Source: Rathayibacter rathayi
Lineage (GTDB): Bacteria > Actinomycetota > Actinomycetes > Actinomycetales > Microbacteriaceae
Assembly: GCF_004011095.1 (NCBI RefSeq)
Contig: NZ_CP028129.1
Location: 1,550,001 to 1,614,000 of the forward strand
DNA length: 64,000 nucleotides
Direction of reading: 5' to 3'
How positions within the stretch are numbered: the stretch's first letter is position 1; each line of letters opens with the position of its first letter. Below, piece by piece: positions 14,697-59,656 of this stretch. The notes under the pieces are model-generated. The model was given only the letters and a program-made list of their open reading frames with translations, was not told the origin of the DNA and searched no databases. The position numbers and the translations under genes are program-made.

Positions 14697-14877
14697 CGGC
14701 CTAGAGCAACCGCAGGAAGGAGTTGTTTTTCGAGACACACCGTCCAGCGGTCCTTCGCGCTCAGCGCGTCCGGGTTCTCAGGGCGTCTGCTGTCAGGATG
14801 CGGCCCGTCTCGTCGGGCGGAGTCGCGCGACGCTCTACCGCCACCAGCAGCCGGCGACTATCGCCACCATCGAGAGG
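14697..14877 (+). other. Intergenic; possible helix-turn-helix remnant
   Basis: No complete gene. One frame near 14800 reads ARLVGRSRATLYRH, reminiscent of the recognition helix of transposases or serine recombinases. It is too short to assign. The IS3-family fragment begins directly after it. Confidence 0.25.
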
Positions 14878-15062
14878 TGAGCTGCCCAACGTTTCTTGGA
14901 CCAGTTGAATAGTTGTCTACGCGGCGAGGTTCTCGGTGATCCATGCCTGCTCGGCTTCGTTCGGGGTCCGATAGTCGAGTCTCGAGTGAAGTCGTTGTTG
15001 ATTGTAACGCAGTTCGATGTACCGTGTCACGTCGCGGATAGCTTTCTCTCTTGTCGGATATT
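14878..15062 (-). mobile_element. IS3-family element, terminal fragment
   Basis: From TGAGCTGCCCAACG at 14878 the sequence matches the left end of the IS3-family element at 19007-19190 almost base for base. It encodes the end of orfB in frame (RYIELRYNQQRLHS, then ITENLAA and a stop). The match ends at 15062, where the IS5-family element begins. The rest of the IS3 element is missing on the far side. Confidence 0.9.
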
Positions 15063-15971
15063 GAGGCTTATGCAAAGTTGGTTTTTTGTTGCGTGAAGAA
15101 GATGAGCCCGCGGACGGCGTTGAAGGCGTCTCGGAAGGTGCGCAGTGGTCGCCTGTAGTCGGTGTAGACTATCCGCCAGGTCTTAATGTTGGCTATTGTT
15201 CTCTCGATCACGTATCGGTGGGTGTTCACGAAGCAATTGTGTTGCTTCGCGTGATCTGGCAAATGTTCTTCGCCTGGTCTCTTTTTTATTGGTGTGACCA
15301 TTCGGGTGCCTTCGTAGCCTTTGTCGGCGAGCGTGTTGGAGAGGTTGAGGGTGTTGGCTAAGCGGGTTTCTCGGAATGCGTGAGTATCGTGGTGCTTGCC
15401 GGGAATGGGATCCGAGATGTGAATCAACCGGCCGGAGAGATCAGCCAGGACCTGACAGTTGTGCCCCGTGGTCTTGTGTTTCCCGGAGTACAGTTCTGGC
15501 GCGTCAGCCCAGGACCAGCACGGCAGGAGAATACCGTCGATGACGGCCGTCGTCTCACCGAGCGCCGCCTTGACGTCCGGCTGTTCGTCGTCCGTCACGA
15601 CGTTAAGCATCGCTTCAACCAACGCGATCGTCCGCGAAACGGTCGACTGATCGACGCCGACGAGATCGGCTATCAACTGCTCGGTGACGTTGTGGCGATA
15701 GTAAAGAAGAGTGACCTGCAATGCCCCAGCGAGCGAGAGTCTGCGTGGCTGTCCTCGCCGTCGCTGCCACAGAAATTCGTTCTCCATCCGTTCGACGAGG
15801 ATCGCGTAGTGCTCGGCCGTCATTCCCGTAGTAGTCTGCATGTGCACCGGCTGGTTCCTTCGTGAAGAGTGTCTGTTGGAAGTTGCCCTTCAATCGAAGC
15901 GGATCAGCCGGTGTTACCCGTGACAGGCACGCACGATTTCACCTCGATCAACCGGATTTTGCATAAACCTC
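15063..15971 (-). mobile_element. Complete IS5-family insertion sequence
   Basis: About 909 bases bounded by imperfect inverted repeats, GAGGCTTATGCAAAG at 15063 and TTTGCATAAACCTC ending at 15971. It carries one uninterrupted transposase gene on the minus strand. It cuts an IS3-family fragment on its left, while its right flank is unrelated sequence, and no matching target duplication is visible. A deletion or recombination at this copy is therefore likely. Confidence 0.88.
15068..15847 (-). CDS. IS5-family transposase
   Basis: 259 residues, DDE transposase of the surrounding element. The start is taken as GTG 15847, eight bases after GAAGGAA; the next ATG (15841) is also possible. Helix-turn-helix: TEQLIADLVGVDQSTVSRTI. 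Catalytic residues: Asp in TAVIDGILLP, Asp in TLADKGYEG and Glu in VIERTIANIKTW. The stop codon TAA lies inside the terminal inverted repeat. The frame is intact, so this copy could still be active and could mobilise the fragments at 1-560 and 1608-1722 through shared ends. Confidence 0.92.
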   Translation of the reverse strand: MHMQTTTGMTAEHYAILVERMENEFLWQRRRGQPRRLSLAGALQVTLLYYRHNVTEQLIADLVGVDQSTVSRTIALVEAMLNVVTDDEQPDVKAALGETTAVIDGILLPCWSWADAPELYSGKHKTTGHNCQVLADLSGRLIHISDPIPGKHHDTHAFRETRLANTLNLSNTLADKGYEGTRMVTPIKKRPGEEHLPDHAKQHNCFVNTHRYVIERTIANIKTWRIVYTDYRRPLRTFRDAFNAVRGLIFFTQQKTNFA

Positions 15972-16009
15972 ATCGAACTCGAACACTACACTGAGGAAAG
16001 GAATAGATC

Positions 16010-18712: not shown

Positions 18713-19006
18713 ATGCGCTACGACTCTACTACAGGCCTGGATGCGGAGCAATTGACGGAGCTGATCTGTCGGATGTGGCAGATTGTCGCGGGAAGGGGCG
18801 AGATTTCGGGACGCCCGGTGCTGCTGAACATTCGCGAGCAGGTCGTTATAACTCTGATCATATTACGGCAGAACGTGAACCAAACGACTATCGCGGATAT
18901 GTTCGGTGTGTCGCAGCCCACGATTTCTCGCGTATATCGGCGGATCGTCCCGCTGATCGAGCAGGCCTGGTGTCTGTCGGGGGTGTGTTGAGAGACGGCT
19001 ATCCAG
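18713..19006 (+). pseudogene. ISL2-like transposase, N-terminal fragment
   Basis: ATG 18713 begins a 92-residue frame with the helix-turn-helix TTIADMFGVSQPTISRVYRR and then LIEQAWCLSGVC. A TGA then ends the frame shortly before the IS3 element starts. The catalytic residues are gone; the short C-terminal piece at 20188-20238 belongs to the same gene. It cannot be active. Confidence 0.85.
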
Positions 19007-19863
19007 TGAGCTGCCCAACGTTTCTTGGACCAGTTGAATAGTTGTCTACGCGGCGTAGGTTCTCGGTGATCCACGCCTGCTCGGCTTCGTTCGGGGTCCG
19101 ATAGTCGAGTCCCGAGTGAAGTCGTTGTTGATTGTAACGCAGTTCGATGTACCGTGTCACGTCGCGGATAGCTTTCTCTGTTGTCGGATATTGAGTGCGA
19201 TTGCGGCGCTCGTTCTTCAGTGTTCCGTTGAATGATTCGGCCCACGCGTTGTCCCAGCAGATTCCCGTCCGGCCCATCGATTGTCTGATGTCGAGCTTCT
19301 TCGCGAGTTTCCCGAAGTCGGCGGAGGTGTAAACGGAGCCGCGGTCACTGTGGAAGATCGTTTTCGCGGCCCGGTTCGGCTGGTTCCTTGCCGCCATTTC
19401 GAGAGGTGATATCACCGACCCATTTGCAGCCGGGTCGATGTGTGGTGAAGTCCCGCTTGACGAGGTCGGGGATGTCAGTCGGATCGCGTGGGGTCGTGGT
19501 CACCGGCCGCCAGGGCTTGGGCTGGCAGGGTTCCAGTCCTGCTGCGCGCAGGAGCCGGCGGACGGTCTCGTGGGCGACTGGACGGCCCCACCGCGCTAGC
19601 TGCGCGGTGACGCGGCGGTAGCCGTAGGTGCCATCGGATGCCTGAAAGGCTGTTCGGAGGAGTTCGGTGATACCCACACGCCATTCAGCGGTTGCGGAGG
19701 TCTTGCGATCGCGCCATTCGTAATAGCTAGATCGGTTGACGCCGACCGTCTGGCACAGTCCGCGGATCGATAGCGTGCGGCTGGAGTCGCGTTCTTCGCG
19801 GCGAATGAGTTCGAGCTTGGCGGCTAGCGGAACTTCTTCGCGAAGAACGCGGATGCTTTTCCC
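19007..19863 (-). pseudogene. IS3-family OrfB, internally deleted
   Basis: After the frameshift site the frame runs through GLCQTVGVNRSSYYEWRD and DGTYGYRRVTAQLARWGRPV to the first catalytic motif KWVGDIT. It then joins, in a different frame, to EMAARNQPNRAAKTIFHSDR, which carries the second catalytic Asp, and ends past NGTLKNERRN with the catalytic Glu. About 50 residues between the first and second Asp are missing near 19400. A further extra base just before the normal stop, compared with the fragment at 14878, makes the C-terminus read ENLRRVDN. Confidence 0.88.
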
Positions 19864-21835: not shown

Positions 21836-21971
21836 GAGGTCATGTAGTGGCGTAGCAGGAATCGGCTCTCGTCGATGAAGCGCTGGTCGCCGGCGGGGTC
21901 GATGAGGTCATGTAGTGGCGTAGCAGGAATCGGCTCTCGTCGATGAAGCGCTGGTCGCCGGCGGGGTCGAT
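21836..21971. repeat. 68-bp perfect tandem duplication
   Basis: The block 21836-21903, starting GAGGTCATGTAGTGGCGTAG, is repeated exactly at 21904-21971. The unit length of 68 is not a multiple of three, so it shifts the reading frame of the TetR gene in which it lies. Confidence 0.95.
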
Positions 21972-22535
21972 GAGGAACGCGCGTGTGAGCAGCGCGTCCG
22001 CGACCTCGATCGTGACCTCCAGGCGGAACGAGAGCTGAGCGCCGCCCGGCAGACCGTACTCGGAGGCGAGGATCTCGGCGAAGCGGCGGGCGAAGAAGCC
22101 TGCCTCGAACGCCTCGCCCGCGACCTCGGGAGCGTGGATCGTGTCGACGAAGCGGATCGAGCGGAAGCCCGGCTCACCGCGGTGCATCTCGCAGAAGGCG
22201 TCGATGGCGCAGTCGACCGCGCCCCACCAGTTGCCCGGCTTGGTGTCGCGGATCTCGGTGATTACCCGGCGGCGGAAGCGTTCGAGCGCCCGTTCGCGCA
22301 GCGCCTGAAGCACCGCGATGCGGTCCGGGAAGTAGCGGTAGACGGTGCCGATCGCGGCTCCGGCCCGCTCGGCTACCATCGCGGTCGTGAGGCGGTCAAA
22401 GCCGACCTCGTCGACGACGGCGGCCGCCGCATCGAGTAGCGAGGCGAGTCGGGCGGCGCTGCGCACCTGCACCGGTTCATTACGGACTTGAGACGATTCA
22501 CCGAACGGTCGGTCGACGAGGTTTCCAAGAGGCAC
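21840..22535 (-). CDS. TetR-family regulator with altered C-terminus
   Basis: 231 residues from GTG 22535 (AAAGGAG six bases upstream). DNA-binding domain: LASLLDAAAAVVDEVGFDRL, then TTAMVAERAGAAIGTVYRYF. The ligand-binding domain runs to RFIDESRFLLRHYMTS. There the 68-bp duplication changes the frame: the last 23 residues (STPPATSASSTRADSCYATT and neighbours) are a frame-shifted copy of the preceding segment. Without the duplication the protein would end HYMTSHYGAVEDS. The change affects only the extreme C-terminus, so the protein may still work. It is divergent from the SRAP gene. Confidence 0.85.
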   Translation of the reverse strand: MPLGNLVDRPFGESSQVRNEPVQVRSAARLASLLDAAAAVVDEVGFDRLTTAMVAERAGAAIGTVYRYFPDRIAVLQALRERALERFRRRVITEIRDTKPGNWWGAVDCAIDAFCEMHRGEPGFRSIRFVDTIHAPEVAGEAFEAGFFARRFAEILASEYGLPGGAQLSFRLEVTIEVADALLTRAFLIDPAGDQRFIDESRFLLRHYMTSSTPPATSASSTRADSCYATT

Positions 22536-45588: not shown

Positions 45589-45656
45589 CGAGGGAACCTT
45601 GGACCGTCGAGGGAGCCTCATGGAGCAGGCTCCCTCGACGGGTCGGGGTTCCCTCG
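45589..45656 (-). terminator. Nested hairpin between murA and the acyltransferase gene
   Basis: An inner perfect 15-bp stem, CCGTCGAGGGAGCCT (45604-45618) with AGGCTCCCTCGACGG (45627-45641), and an outer perfect 10-bp stem, CGAGGGAACC (45589-45598) with GGTTCCCTCG (45647-45656), enclose each other. The position just after the murA stop suggests a terminator or attenuator without a T-run. Confidence 0.75.
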
Positions 45657-56733: not shown

Positions 56734-57687
56734 ATGTCCCTCCGCCAGGCCGAGTATCCCCGGCCCAACCACTTCATCCTTCACCTGAGCGACACCCACT
56801 TCATTGCCGGAGACGGCGGCCTGTACGGCTCTGACGTCGACAGCGAGGCCCAGCTGCGGCTCCTGTTCGAGGAGCTGGAGCAGTCCGGCGGACGCCCCGA
56901 AGCGATCGTCATCACGGGCGACCTGGCCGATAAGGGTGAACCGGCGGCGTACGCGAAGCTGCGCGCCGTCGTCGAGCCCGCGGCTGCCCGCCTCGGTGCC
57001 GAGGTGATCTGGGTGATGGGCAACCACGACGATCGCGGCGCCTTTCGCTCGGGACTGCTCGACCAGCTCCCGACTACGCAGCCGGTCGACCGGGTGCACG
57101 ACGTGAACGGCCTGCGGATCATCGCACTCGACTCCACCATCCCCGGCGCCCACTACGGCGAGATCTCGGGCGCCCAGCTCGACTGGCTCGCGGAGGAGCT
57201 CTCCAGCCCGGCCCCGCACGGCACGATCCTGGCTCTGCACCACCCGCCGGTGCCGAGCGTCCTGGACCTGTCGGTGCTCGTGGAGCTGCGCGACCAGCCC
57301 GCGCTCGCGGAGGTGCTCGAGGGTTCCGACGTCCGCAGCATCATCGCGGGCCACCTGCACTACTCCTCGACCGCGATGTTCGCCGGCATCCCCGTCTCGG
57401 TCGCCTCGGCCACCTGCTACACCCAGGACTTAAATGTGCCGGTCGGAGCGACCCGCGCCCGCAATGGGGCGCAGGCCTTCAACCTGGTCCACGTCTACGA
57501 CGACACGGTGCTGCACTCGGTGGTGCCGATCGGGGCGTCGACCGAGGTGTCCTACGTCTCGGCTGTCGAAACGCAGCGGATCCTCGCGGACCACGGCATC
57601 GAGATCGCGGCGACGGCTCCGGCTCTGGTGACGCGCGACGCCGCGCTGTATCCGCCACTCGTGGAGCCGGTGGGCGCGAGCGCGTAG
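56734..57687 (+). CDS. Metallophosphoesterase (CpdA/Icc-like)
   Basis: 317 residues from ATG 56734. Calcineurin-like motifs in order: [16 protein letters not shown] (DxH), [13 protein letters not shown] (GD), [12 protein letters not shown] (GNHD), LALHHPPVP and [10 protein letters not shown] (GHxH). This set is typical of class III cyclic-nucleotide phosphodiesterases such as CpdA and Rv0805. The substrate (cAMP or another phosphodiester) is not certain. Its stop lies 20 bases before the repeat array. Confidence 0.88.
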
Positions 57688-57771
57688 GGGCGGCCGGGGC
57701 GCTCGGCGTGCGATCTGCAGGCCCCCGTCCGATTCGCAGGGCCCTGTCCGATCCGCAGGGGATTTACCACA

Positions 57772-57783
57772 GAGAACGCTCTC
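57772..57783. promoter_or_regulatory. Palindrome GAGAACGCTCTC, LacI-operator-like
   Basis: Near-perfect palindrome at the centre of repeat module A. It has the shape of LacI/GalR-family operators with a central CG. Binding is not shown. Confidence 0.4.
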
Positions 57784-57946
57784 ATCCGCGATAAGGAAGG
57801 GCGACGGTCGAGATCTCCTGCGAATCGCACGCTTCCCTGCACACCGTACTTTTCCGCGGGGCAGTCCGATTAGCAGGGGTTCGTCCGATTAGCAGGGGCC
57901 TGTCTGGTTTTCAGGGGTAGGTGCGATTAGCAGGGGATTGGTACCG

Positions 57947-57958
57947 GAGAGCGCTCTC
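57947..57958. promoter_or_regulatory. Palindrome GAGAGCGCTCTC, LacI-operator-like
   Basis: Perfect 12-bp palindrome at the centre of repeat module B, flanked symmetrically by inverted 19-bp repeats. It matches the general form of LacI-family operators in actinobacteria. No LacI-type gene is in the window. Confidence 0.45.
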
Positions 57959-58111
57959 GTCCGCCTGCACAAGGCACGGCGGTTCAGATCCCCTGCGAAT
58001 CGCACAGGGGCCTGCGAATCGCACAGGGGCCTGCGAATCGCACGGAGGCCTGCGAATCGCACGGCGCGCGGGCAGGCGTCCGCGCCTGGCGCCGACGGCC
58101 CGCCCCAGCGC

Positions 58112-59656
58112 TCAGTCCTCGCGCTCCCAGGGGGCCGGGATCGGGTAGTACTCCTCGAGGAACCCGATGACGGCCTTGGTGCGCGCCTCCGCCGAGATCT
58201 CGGGGAAGCTGCCGTCGTTGAGGCAAAAGAAGTCGACTCCGCGGTTCTTCAGGAGCTTGCGCATGTCCTTCAGGCCCTGGTGCATCGTCGTGTCGACATA
58301 CTTCACGGCGGCATTCTCCTGCACCACCGCGCGCCCGGTCATCAGCGCGTAGTAATGGTAGAGCGAGTTGGTGACGGAGACGTCGCTCGCCGAGCGGAAG
58401 CGACTAGCCGCCGTCGCGGTGAACTCCGGCTCGAACTCGGCCTCCAGCTCGGCCATCACGCTCTTGCGGAGCGGAGTGGCGGCGTGCTCGAGGTGGCGCG
58501 TCGTCATCGCCCCGAAGCGCTCGCGCAGTAGGCGCCGGTTGACGCGGGCCGCGTTCTCGAAGCCGCTGCGCGAGGCGTTGGAGTCGCCCATGCCGATGCG
58601 CGTGGTCGCCTCGATGAACTTGGTGATGCCTCCGGGCGAGAAGAAGATCGACGGATCGACCGGACGCCCGAAGAACATGTCGTCGTTGGAGTAGAGGAAG
58701 TGCTCCGCCAGACCCGGGATGCGGTGCAGCTGGCTCTCGACGGCGTGGGAGTTGTGGGTGGGCAGCACGGAGAGGTCGCGGAAGTGGTCCTCGCTGCGCA
58801 CGAGCGTCACGTCGGGGTGCTCGTCGAGCCAGCGCGGGCGCGGGGAGTCGGTGACGATGTAGATGCGCCGGATCCACGGGGCATACATGTAGACGCTGCG
58901 CAGGGCATACTTCAGTTCGTCGATCTGGCGGAAGCGCGCGGGGGCGTCGTCGCCCTCGCCCACCACGTAGCTGGACATCCGGGCCGCGCGGGCGCGCTGG
59001 AATTCGAGATCGGTGCCGTCCACCCACGAAAACACAATGTCGATCTCAAAGCGGATGTCGCTGACCAACGGCTCGAACATGCCCTCGAACGTCGGCCAGG
59101 TGCGGCCGTAGGCCTCGACGTGCGCGTCGATCGCCTCGGCGACGGGAAGGCTGTTGCGCATCAGCGCGTTCTCGGCGGGAGTGATGATTTCCTCCTCGCC
59201 GACCTTCCACAGCTCCAGGCGGACCCCACTCCGGGCGCCGTAGCGCAGCGATCCGGTGGAGGAGACGCGCGGGCGGAACAGCTTGAACACGGCGGCGCGC
59301 GGATATGGCGCCAGAACCCCCTCGGCCAGCAACTGCGGCGGGGTGCCGCGCTTGTCGACGGTCTTCGTGTAAAAGGGTTCGGTCGCGAAGGCGCGAGCAA
59401 GCAGCGTCGCCAGCTCCGCGCCCAGCATGCGGTCGACCGCGAGGAACGGCGAACCGTTGGTGCCGCGAATGAGGCGGTAGGGGAATTCGGCGGCGTCGAG
59501 GACCTCGCCGATCGCGATCAAGTCTTCGGTCCAGGCCGCGCGCGGCGTCGTACTCGAGTTCACCAGCGAGAACAGGCCGGCATGGACCACGACGTCGTCG
59601 CGGTCGAAGTGGCGCGGGCGCAGGAGCGGTGACGGAAGAGCACGGACAGAAGGCAT
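58112..59656 (-). CDS. Stealth-family (sugar-phosphate transferase) protein
   Basis: 514 residues from ATG 59656. Stealth proteins transfer hexose-1-phosphate to build capsule or cell-wall polysaccharides. Conserved regions: CR1 FEIDIVFSWVDGTDLEFQRA; CR2 ARFRQIDELKYALRSVYMYA, then IRRIYIVTD; CR3 around LPTHNSHAVESQLHRIPGLA; FLYSNDDMFFGRPV; and a C-terminal CR4-like part. No membrane helix is seen. The gene follows the CYTH-CHAD gene on the same strand, 44 bases away, and converges on the metallophosphoesterase gene across the repeat array. Confidence 0.9.
   Translation of the reverse strand: MPSVRALPSPLLRPRHFDRDDVVVHAGLFSLVNSSTTPRAAWTEDLIAIGEVLDAAEFPYRLIRGTNGSPFLAVDRMLGAELATLLARAFATEPFYTKTVDKRGTPPQLLAEGVLAPYPRAAVFKLFRPRVSSTGSLRYGARSGVRLELWKVGEEEIITPAENALMRNSLPVAEAIDAHVEAYGRTWPTFEGMFEPLVSDIRFEIDIVFSWVDGTDLEFQRARAARMSSYVVGEGDDAPARFRQIDELKYALRSVYMYAPWIRRIYIVTDSPRPRWLDEHPDVTLVRSEDHFRDLSVLPTHNSHAVESQLHRIPGLAEHFLYSNDDMFFGRPVDPSIFFSPGGITKFIEATTRIGMGDSNASRSGFENAARVNRRLLRERFGAMTTRHLEHAATPLRKSVMAELEAEFEPEFTATAASRFRSASDVSVTNSLYHYYALMTGRAVVQENAAVKYVDTTMHQGLKDMRKLLKNRGVDFFCLNDGSFPEISAEARTKAVIGFLEEYYPIPAPWERED

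Follow-up and report, generated by a model that had tools for sequence, protein, structure and literature searches.

Dispersed intergenic modules of facing 19-bp-period arrays across a core of retained length in the genus Rathayibacter

Results

The two repeat modules that lie between convergent genes in the window (the whole stretch of 64,000 nucleotides that was analysed) are members of a dispersed intergenic family, and not a local feature. With a probability of roughly 55%, we read this family as a genus-level set of intergenic double-stranded DNA platforms for a putative binding protein. Modules A and B occupy most of a 424-bp gap (Table 1), and their position and arrangement, as described in the initial annotation, were confirmed base for base by direct reading, the arrays being recovered also by a repeat search and by TRF. 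The unit is an asymmetric 14-bp sequence, GTnCGATnnGCAGG, repeated in tandem every 19 bp, and the forward and reverse arrays face inward across a core. In both modules, GGAT is found just inside the inner forward unit, ATCT or ATCC just inside the inner reverse unit, and CCGC after the palindrome. The reported spacings of 26 bp (start of the last forward unit to palindrome) and 45 bp (palindrome start to first reverse unit) hold in modules A and B alike, and so do the unit counts, namely three forward and one to two reverse units in module A, the second reverse unit being weak, and four of each in module B, where one forward unit is degenerate. The 12-bp palindrome reported for both modules is indeed present in both, albeit imperfect in module A. 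The initial annotation had also set the arrays apart from CRISPR, in agreement with the 14-bp units, the 5-bp linkers and the 155 same-strand steps of 19 bp counted in 35 stretches of the source genome; CRISPR spacers are unique and about 20-50 bp long.

Table 1. Position of the two modules, their parts and the flanking genes in the window
Feature	Position	Strand	Description	Basis
Flanking gene 5' of module A	56734..57687	+	calcineurin-like phosphoesterase; stop 20 bp before module A	sequence and Pfam
Module A forward array	57708..57759	+	three 14-bp units (57708-57721, 57727-57740, 57746-57759), 19-bp period	direct reading, repeat search, TRF
Module A core	57760..57816	+	exactly 57 bp; type A; motif on + strand	
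Module A palindrome (type A)	57772..57783	+	GAGAACGCTCTC, imperfect; starts 26 after last forward unit start	
CCGC of module A core motif	57786..57789	+	common to types A and B	
Module A reverse array	57817..57849	-	57817-57830 perfect; 57836-57849 diverged and weak (CCTGCACACCGTAC)	
Module B forward array	57864..57934	+	units at 57864, 57883, 57902 (degenerate, GTCTGGTTTTCAGG) and 57921	direct reading, repeat search, TRF
Module B core	57935..57991	+	exactly 57 bp; type A; motif on + strand	
Module B palindrome (type A)	57947..57958	+	GAGAGCGCTCTC	
CCGC of module B core motif	57961..57964	+		
Module B reverse array	57992..58062	-	four identical 14-bp units at 57992, 58011, 58030 and 58049	direct reading, repeat search, TRF
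Convergent flanking gene 3' of module B	58112..59656	-	Stealth-family protein; ends 49 bp after module B	sequence and Pfam

Elsewhere in the window, two duplicated pairs were seen (1-562 and 15412-15973, 86% identical; 14877-15065 and 19006-19195, 98% identical), together with a 72-nt exact near-tandem repeat at 21836-21975.

In the 3.1-Mb source genome (G000), the single unit, with one mismatch, was found at 42 + 35 places, and the pattern GATNNGCAGG-N57-CCTGCNNATC, with at most one mismatch, at 37 places, the reversed control giving 0 in each case. At the same stringency, the latter pattern had matches in 12 of 15 genomes of the genus. A slightly longer pattern, searched with zero mismatches, was present in 6 of 398 genomes of the family (a sample that included ten of the same genus), all belonging to one genus, Rathayibacter, out of 85. 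A scan of named species genomes returned 40 stretches, 33 of which fell in five Rathayibacter records; the other 7, singletons in unrelated taxa whose cores lack the inner GGAT/ATCC pair, were treated as chance matches. Plasmid and phage records gave no blastn match at E 1e-3, one viral contig matched each of two patterns, and Rfam gave no match for positions 57600-58200. No tRNA genes were seen beside the modules in 28 stretches. A search of the open literature on Rathayibacter and Microbacteriaceae repeats, dispersed intergenic repeats and the unit sequences found no description of the module.

Absence of the unit and its spacing elsewhere, which had been named as a sign of chance local expansion, is excluded by these matches and by the conserved junctions described below. 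Linkers are often alike, by eye, within one array, so that arrays do grow by local duplication; as an account of the whole, chance or neutral tandem expansion has next to no probability and is refuted by the recurrence in the genome (37 places versus 0 in the reversed control), by simulation (two modules with a 57-bp core and at most one mismatch in the real window versus 0 in 60 Markov-simulated windows), and by the occurrence of modules at the same junctions and in the same directions in other species.

The location of the modules was determined in relation to gene calls made in this analysis from codon usage. None of 40 modules of the source genome lies inside a called gene; 16 are found between convergent, 20 between codirectional and 4 between divergent genes. 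Convergent gaps are enriched (13 of 36 gaps with a module versus 8 of 74 without; P = 0.0035), while divergent gaps are less frequent, though not significantly so (4 of 36 versus 20 of 74; P = 0.08). The modules thereby display the intergenic and 3'-end bias of BIME-like topological sites, 36 of 40 being not divergent. The core motif lies on the strand of the genes in 11 of 19 codirectional cases, and its direction showed no replichore bias when the contig midpoint was taken as terminus. Neighbouring genes include those that we take to be guaA, smc-ftsY, coaE-uvrB, rpe and aspS, from their sequence and Pfam domains. Among 10 neighbour proteins scanned, which are unrelated and mostly housekeeping or metabolic, no candidate binding protein was found.

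The distance between the inner forward and reverse units is 57 or 58 bp at 88 of 90 places when any gap of 42-72 bp is allowed (67 at 57, 21 at 58, one at 56 and one at 71), these places being resolved among the matches listed, which cover 4 of the 15 genomes; an overlapping cluster was scored as 57 or 58 if either occurs, and without this rule 135 of 150 matches are at 57 or 58. The claim that exact spacing marks a defined element is thus borne out well beyond the window. One genome, G001, favours the 58-bp core (15 of 18). The source genome was examined at 35 stretches, of which single-unit matches gave 27 and the pattern or palindrome of the core the other 8; here the step from a forward to a reverse unit measures 71 bp (57-bp core) in 34 instances, and no other distance occurs more than 4 times. 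The fixed part of the element, forward unit, core and reverse unit, measures 85-86 bp. The arms, on the other hand, range from 1 to 9 units, the two arms of a module being unequal (correlation -0.20; 41 modules of the source genome).

When oriented, the cores carry a common motif on one side of the centre (score 1806 versus at most 1103 in 20 shuffles; 86 distinct cores). Two types could be distinguished in the source genome: (i) type A (20 of 40 cores) has GAGAGCGCTCTC within 3 mismatches, followed by CCGC (GAGAGCGCTCTC..CCGC), and (ii) type B, defined as the complement of type A in this split on the palindrome (the other 20 of 40), has at the same place a non-palindromic motif of about GGnCGATYYTRCCGC (score 489 versus at most 320 in 15 shuffles). 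Among all 40 cores, CCGC is unchanged in 28 and has a single altered base in 7. Leave-one-out typing of the cores was correct in 40 of 40 cases, the split itself having been made on the palindrome. No link was seen between core type and gene context or arm length, nor between arm length and motif side.

The palindrome, described initially as the centre of each module, is present in modules A and B and marks only half of the family's cores. It presumably resembles actinobacterial LacI-family operators, and a LacI-type decoy or operator cluster was among the options first listed. That the modules serve as an operator cluster or decoy for a LacI-family regulator binding GAGAGCGCTCTC is nevertheless very improbable: this reading is not supported because only 20 of 40 cores carry the palindrome, the rest having the other motif there, and it has against it that 36 of 40 modules do not lie between divergent genes and that no promoter-like site occurs in 57600-58200.

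Comparison between species was made on 29 orthologous pairs at 18 loci of the source genome, two paralogous matches being excluded. The motif points the same way in 26 of 29 pairs, and the core type is shared by 25 of 29; with each locus entered a single time, the figures are 16 of 18 and 17 of 18, respectively. Identity of the core interior is 0.385 between orthologues versus 0.322 in mismatched pairs, and that of the motif 0.666 versus 0.542; the interior sequence is nearly saturated between orthologues. As length is kept while the letters drift, something presumably measures the length of the core; retained length and orientation, an interior near saturation and the use of the same junctions across species together make strong evidence for a distance-measuring factor. 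Of the four disagreements in type, one comes from L084 (the second of its two modules) and the other three from genomes compared at the guaA junction. This junction (L138; relatives L063, L066, L099, L104 and L144) is the main case of core-type switching: six genomes have a module there, three with a type B core and three with a type A core.

The junction of the window itself holds one intact module with a 57-bp core in G002, a degenerate module in G008 (core of about 50 bp, counted by eye) and one relic-like unit in G014; no module was seen there in the other 11 genomes of the genus. Before ftsY, where 600 nt upstream were scored, a module is present in 5 of 15 genomes (G000, G003, G005, G007 and G008), with cores of 57, 57, 57, 57 and 58 bp and a distance from the inner reverse unit to the ftsY start of 40, 47, 48, 48 and 25 bp, respectively, a comparison of core and flank length that belongs to this one junction (smc-ftsY). 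In G005, the last part of the upstream reading frame covers the forward unit of this module. The module before ftsY is absent in 10 of 15 genomes, two of which, G001 and G002, have a different gene there and hence are not empty smc-ftsY sites. Given losses at many junctions, no module is essential by itself.

The initial annotation had also proposed a large hairpin between convergent genes. At the level of RNA, the facing arrays would pair into one long hairpin and so end or stabilise the transcripts of both convergent genes, a reading consistent with the inverted arrays, with the location of most modules downstream of at least one gene, and with the strong RNA fold of the module region (z -9.0). 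However, any inverted array must fold as RNA, so that this value does not discriminate between DNA and RNA. Inner arms do not covary within G000 (n = 40; the variable NN pair matches in 4 of 40 versus 7.2 expected) or within G003 (n = 13; 6 of 13 versus 6.1 expected), and do so weakly in G002 (9 of 19 versus 6.3 expected; P = 0.09), where, taken alone (n = 19), 2 of 24 arm positions covary (P = 0.017 and 0.038). When genomes are pooled, six of the first 24 arm positions covary (2, 7, 8, 14, 16 and 21), which in our view reflects unit dialects that differ from genome to genome. Moreover, no terminator-like site was seen in 57600-58200, where Rfam likewise gave no match, and other hairpin repeats of the source genome show, by eye, compensated stems. 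The hairpin is not supported because arm covariation is missing within genomes, the motif direction is independent of gene direction, the arms are unequal, and modules occur between codirectional and divergent genes too; we consider an RNA-level element improbable.

Discussion

Of the options first listed, we continue to prefer an iteron-like array that binds protein. In the platform reading, each 14-bp unit would bind one copy of a putative asymmetric DNA-binding protein, and the two inner units, together with a core-binding factor of two specificities, would form one nucleoprotein complex that fixes the distance between them. The outer units would provide added cooperative binding, and would be gained or lost by tandem duplication. 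We suggest, with less confidence, that the complex might act on the DNA itself, through its topology, by insulating adjacent transcription units or by folding the chromosome; a comparable action has been proposed for BIMEs. The placement at 3' ends makes such roles likelier than promoter control. With the same reserve, we favour double-stranded DNA as the working form over an operator of one promoter or an RNA. Modules may also serve as a partition or nucleoid site, as had been listed at the outset. Counting against the platform reading are the many junctions from which modules are missing, the RNA fold (z -9.0) and the pooled arm covariation; enrichment in convergent gaps, for its part, is also a property of mobile repeats, according to the part of PMC3049150 available.

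A more specific version appears possible, although on the whole doubtful, namely that the modules are a putative class of chromosomal assembly site in which a pair of inverted monomer sites about 5.5 helical turns apart is locked by either of two directional core factors, the 19-bp arrays serving as antennae; together they would make up a system, specific to the genus and with its own protein set, for organising or insulating the chromosome. Identification of the factor would reveal either a new actinobacterial protein that organises or insulates DNA or a new mechanism of mobile repeats, and the two core types and the orthologous presence or absence of modules make the question testable.

REP sequences, BIMEs and REPINs are, as far as the parts of PMC3116915 and PMC3733652 available describe them, short dispersed intergenic repeats whose inverted copies keep preferred distances and lie for the most part between genes that are convergent or codirectional (related literature in PMC5552033, likewise available in part), and in these terms the Rathayibacter modules resemble them, being dispersed, intergenic and inverted at a preferred distance. 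In contrast to REPs and REPINs, the module units are asymmetric and not conserved as hairpins, position 3 of GTnCGATnnGCAGG being variable (G56, C19, A6 and T5 of 86) while its would-be partner is C in 86 of 86; modules also have long one-sided tandem arrays, a core of held length and two core types. The RAYT transposase domain (Y1_Tnp, PF01797) is found in 0 of 15 genus genomes versus 5 of 14 control rings. Our best reading is that the modules lie mostly beyond gene ends, like BIMEs, yet form a separate family.

A miniature mobile element, another of the options first listed, may be the origin of the modules. We judge it unlikely that they are at present a REPIN- or MITE-like mobile repeat, in which the forward unit, core and reverse unit would be copied in trans by a recombinase needing two inverted sites at a fixed distance, most copies being old. 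The dispersed, intergenic distribution of a fixed 85-86-bp unit, its enrichment between convergent genes, its patchy occurrence among species and the duplications seen locally (core identity of 0.98 within stretch L131 and 0.96 within L053) speak for such a repeat. Against it, the best core identity between different source-genome stretches examined is 0.75, so that neither recent dispersal nor the near-identical dispersed copies of MITEs were seen; length is held despite near-saturated interiors, when dead copies should drift in length; and neither the PF01797 domain in the genus nor a plasmid or phage match at E 1e-3 was found. The outer ends differ from copy to copy, which argues against fixed termini, and, with ends that vary in unit number, no clean pair of filled and empty sites was found for scoring a target site duplication.

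Two further systems share traits with the platform-like modules. Tn402/Tn5053-type transposons carry arrayed transposase-binding sites, in tandem, of about 19 bp and facing each other; there, the arrays bound a multi-gene transposon, whereas those of Rathayibacter enclose only a 57-58-bp core. The BOX element of Streptococcus pneumoniae, as described in the available part of PMC3049150, is a modular intergenic repeat with a variable number of tandem units and enriched between convergent genes, in all of which it is similar to our modules; BOX, however, has different end modules and a folding RNA, while the Rathayibacter arms consist of one 14-bp unit in opposite directions around a core of fixed length.

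Within the genus, a dispersed palindromic repeat of about 75 nt with 15-99 copies per genome has been reported (PMC6113626, available in part); compared with it by description, without its sequence, our module is likewise dispersed but is probably another repeat. We observed a near-perfect palindrome of about 70 nt (AACGTCAGCTGAGAG...; L041:1854-1921, L044:4657-4718, L035:1838-1909 and L139:4863-4938), with stem changes compensated by eye, in 15 of 15 genus genomes, with 42 matches on both strands in G000. This palindrome probably is the reported repeat, whose description it fits better than the module does. A further dispersed hairpin repeat, GAGGGAACC...GTCGAGGGA..., was seen at window 45589-45656, at L050:797-869 and L048:4526-4595, and in the gap before ftsY in L151 and L150; in G013 and G004 it fills the smc-ftsY gap, where other species have a module. 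A third repeat, inverted and with arms GCGAGATGCCACTTATGACG, lies beside C-rich or G-rich low-complexity tracts (L056:1756-1875, L135:1192-1312 and L042:292-389). Finally, about 2.6 kb of mostly non-coding DNA follows a small-subunit ribosomal protein gene (rpsD by eye) at L037:541-3215 (G000:C1:1060540-1063214), a junction that is far shorter in G003 and G014; within this stretch are a terminator-like hairpin that is duplicated and, near L037:2214, a second module that is interrupted.
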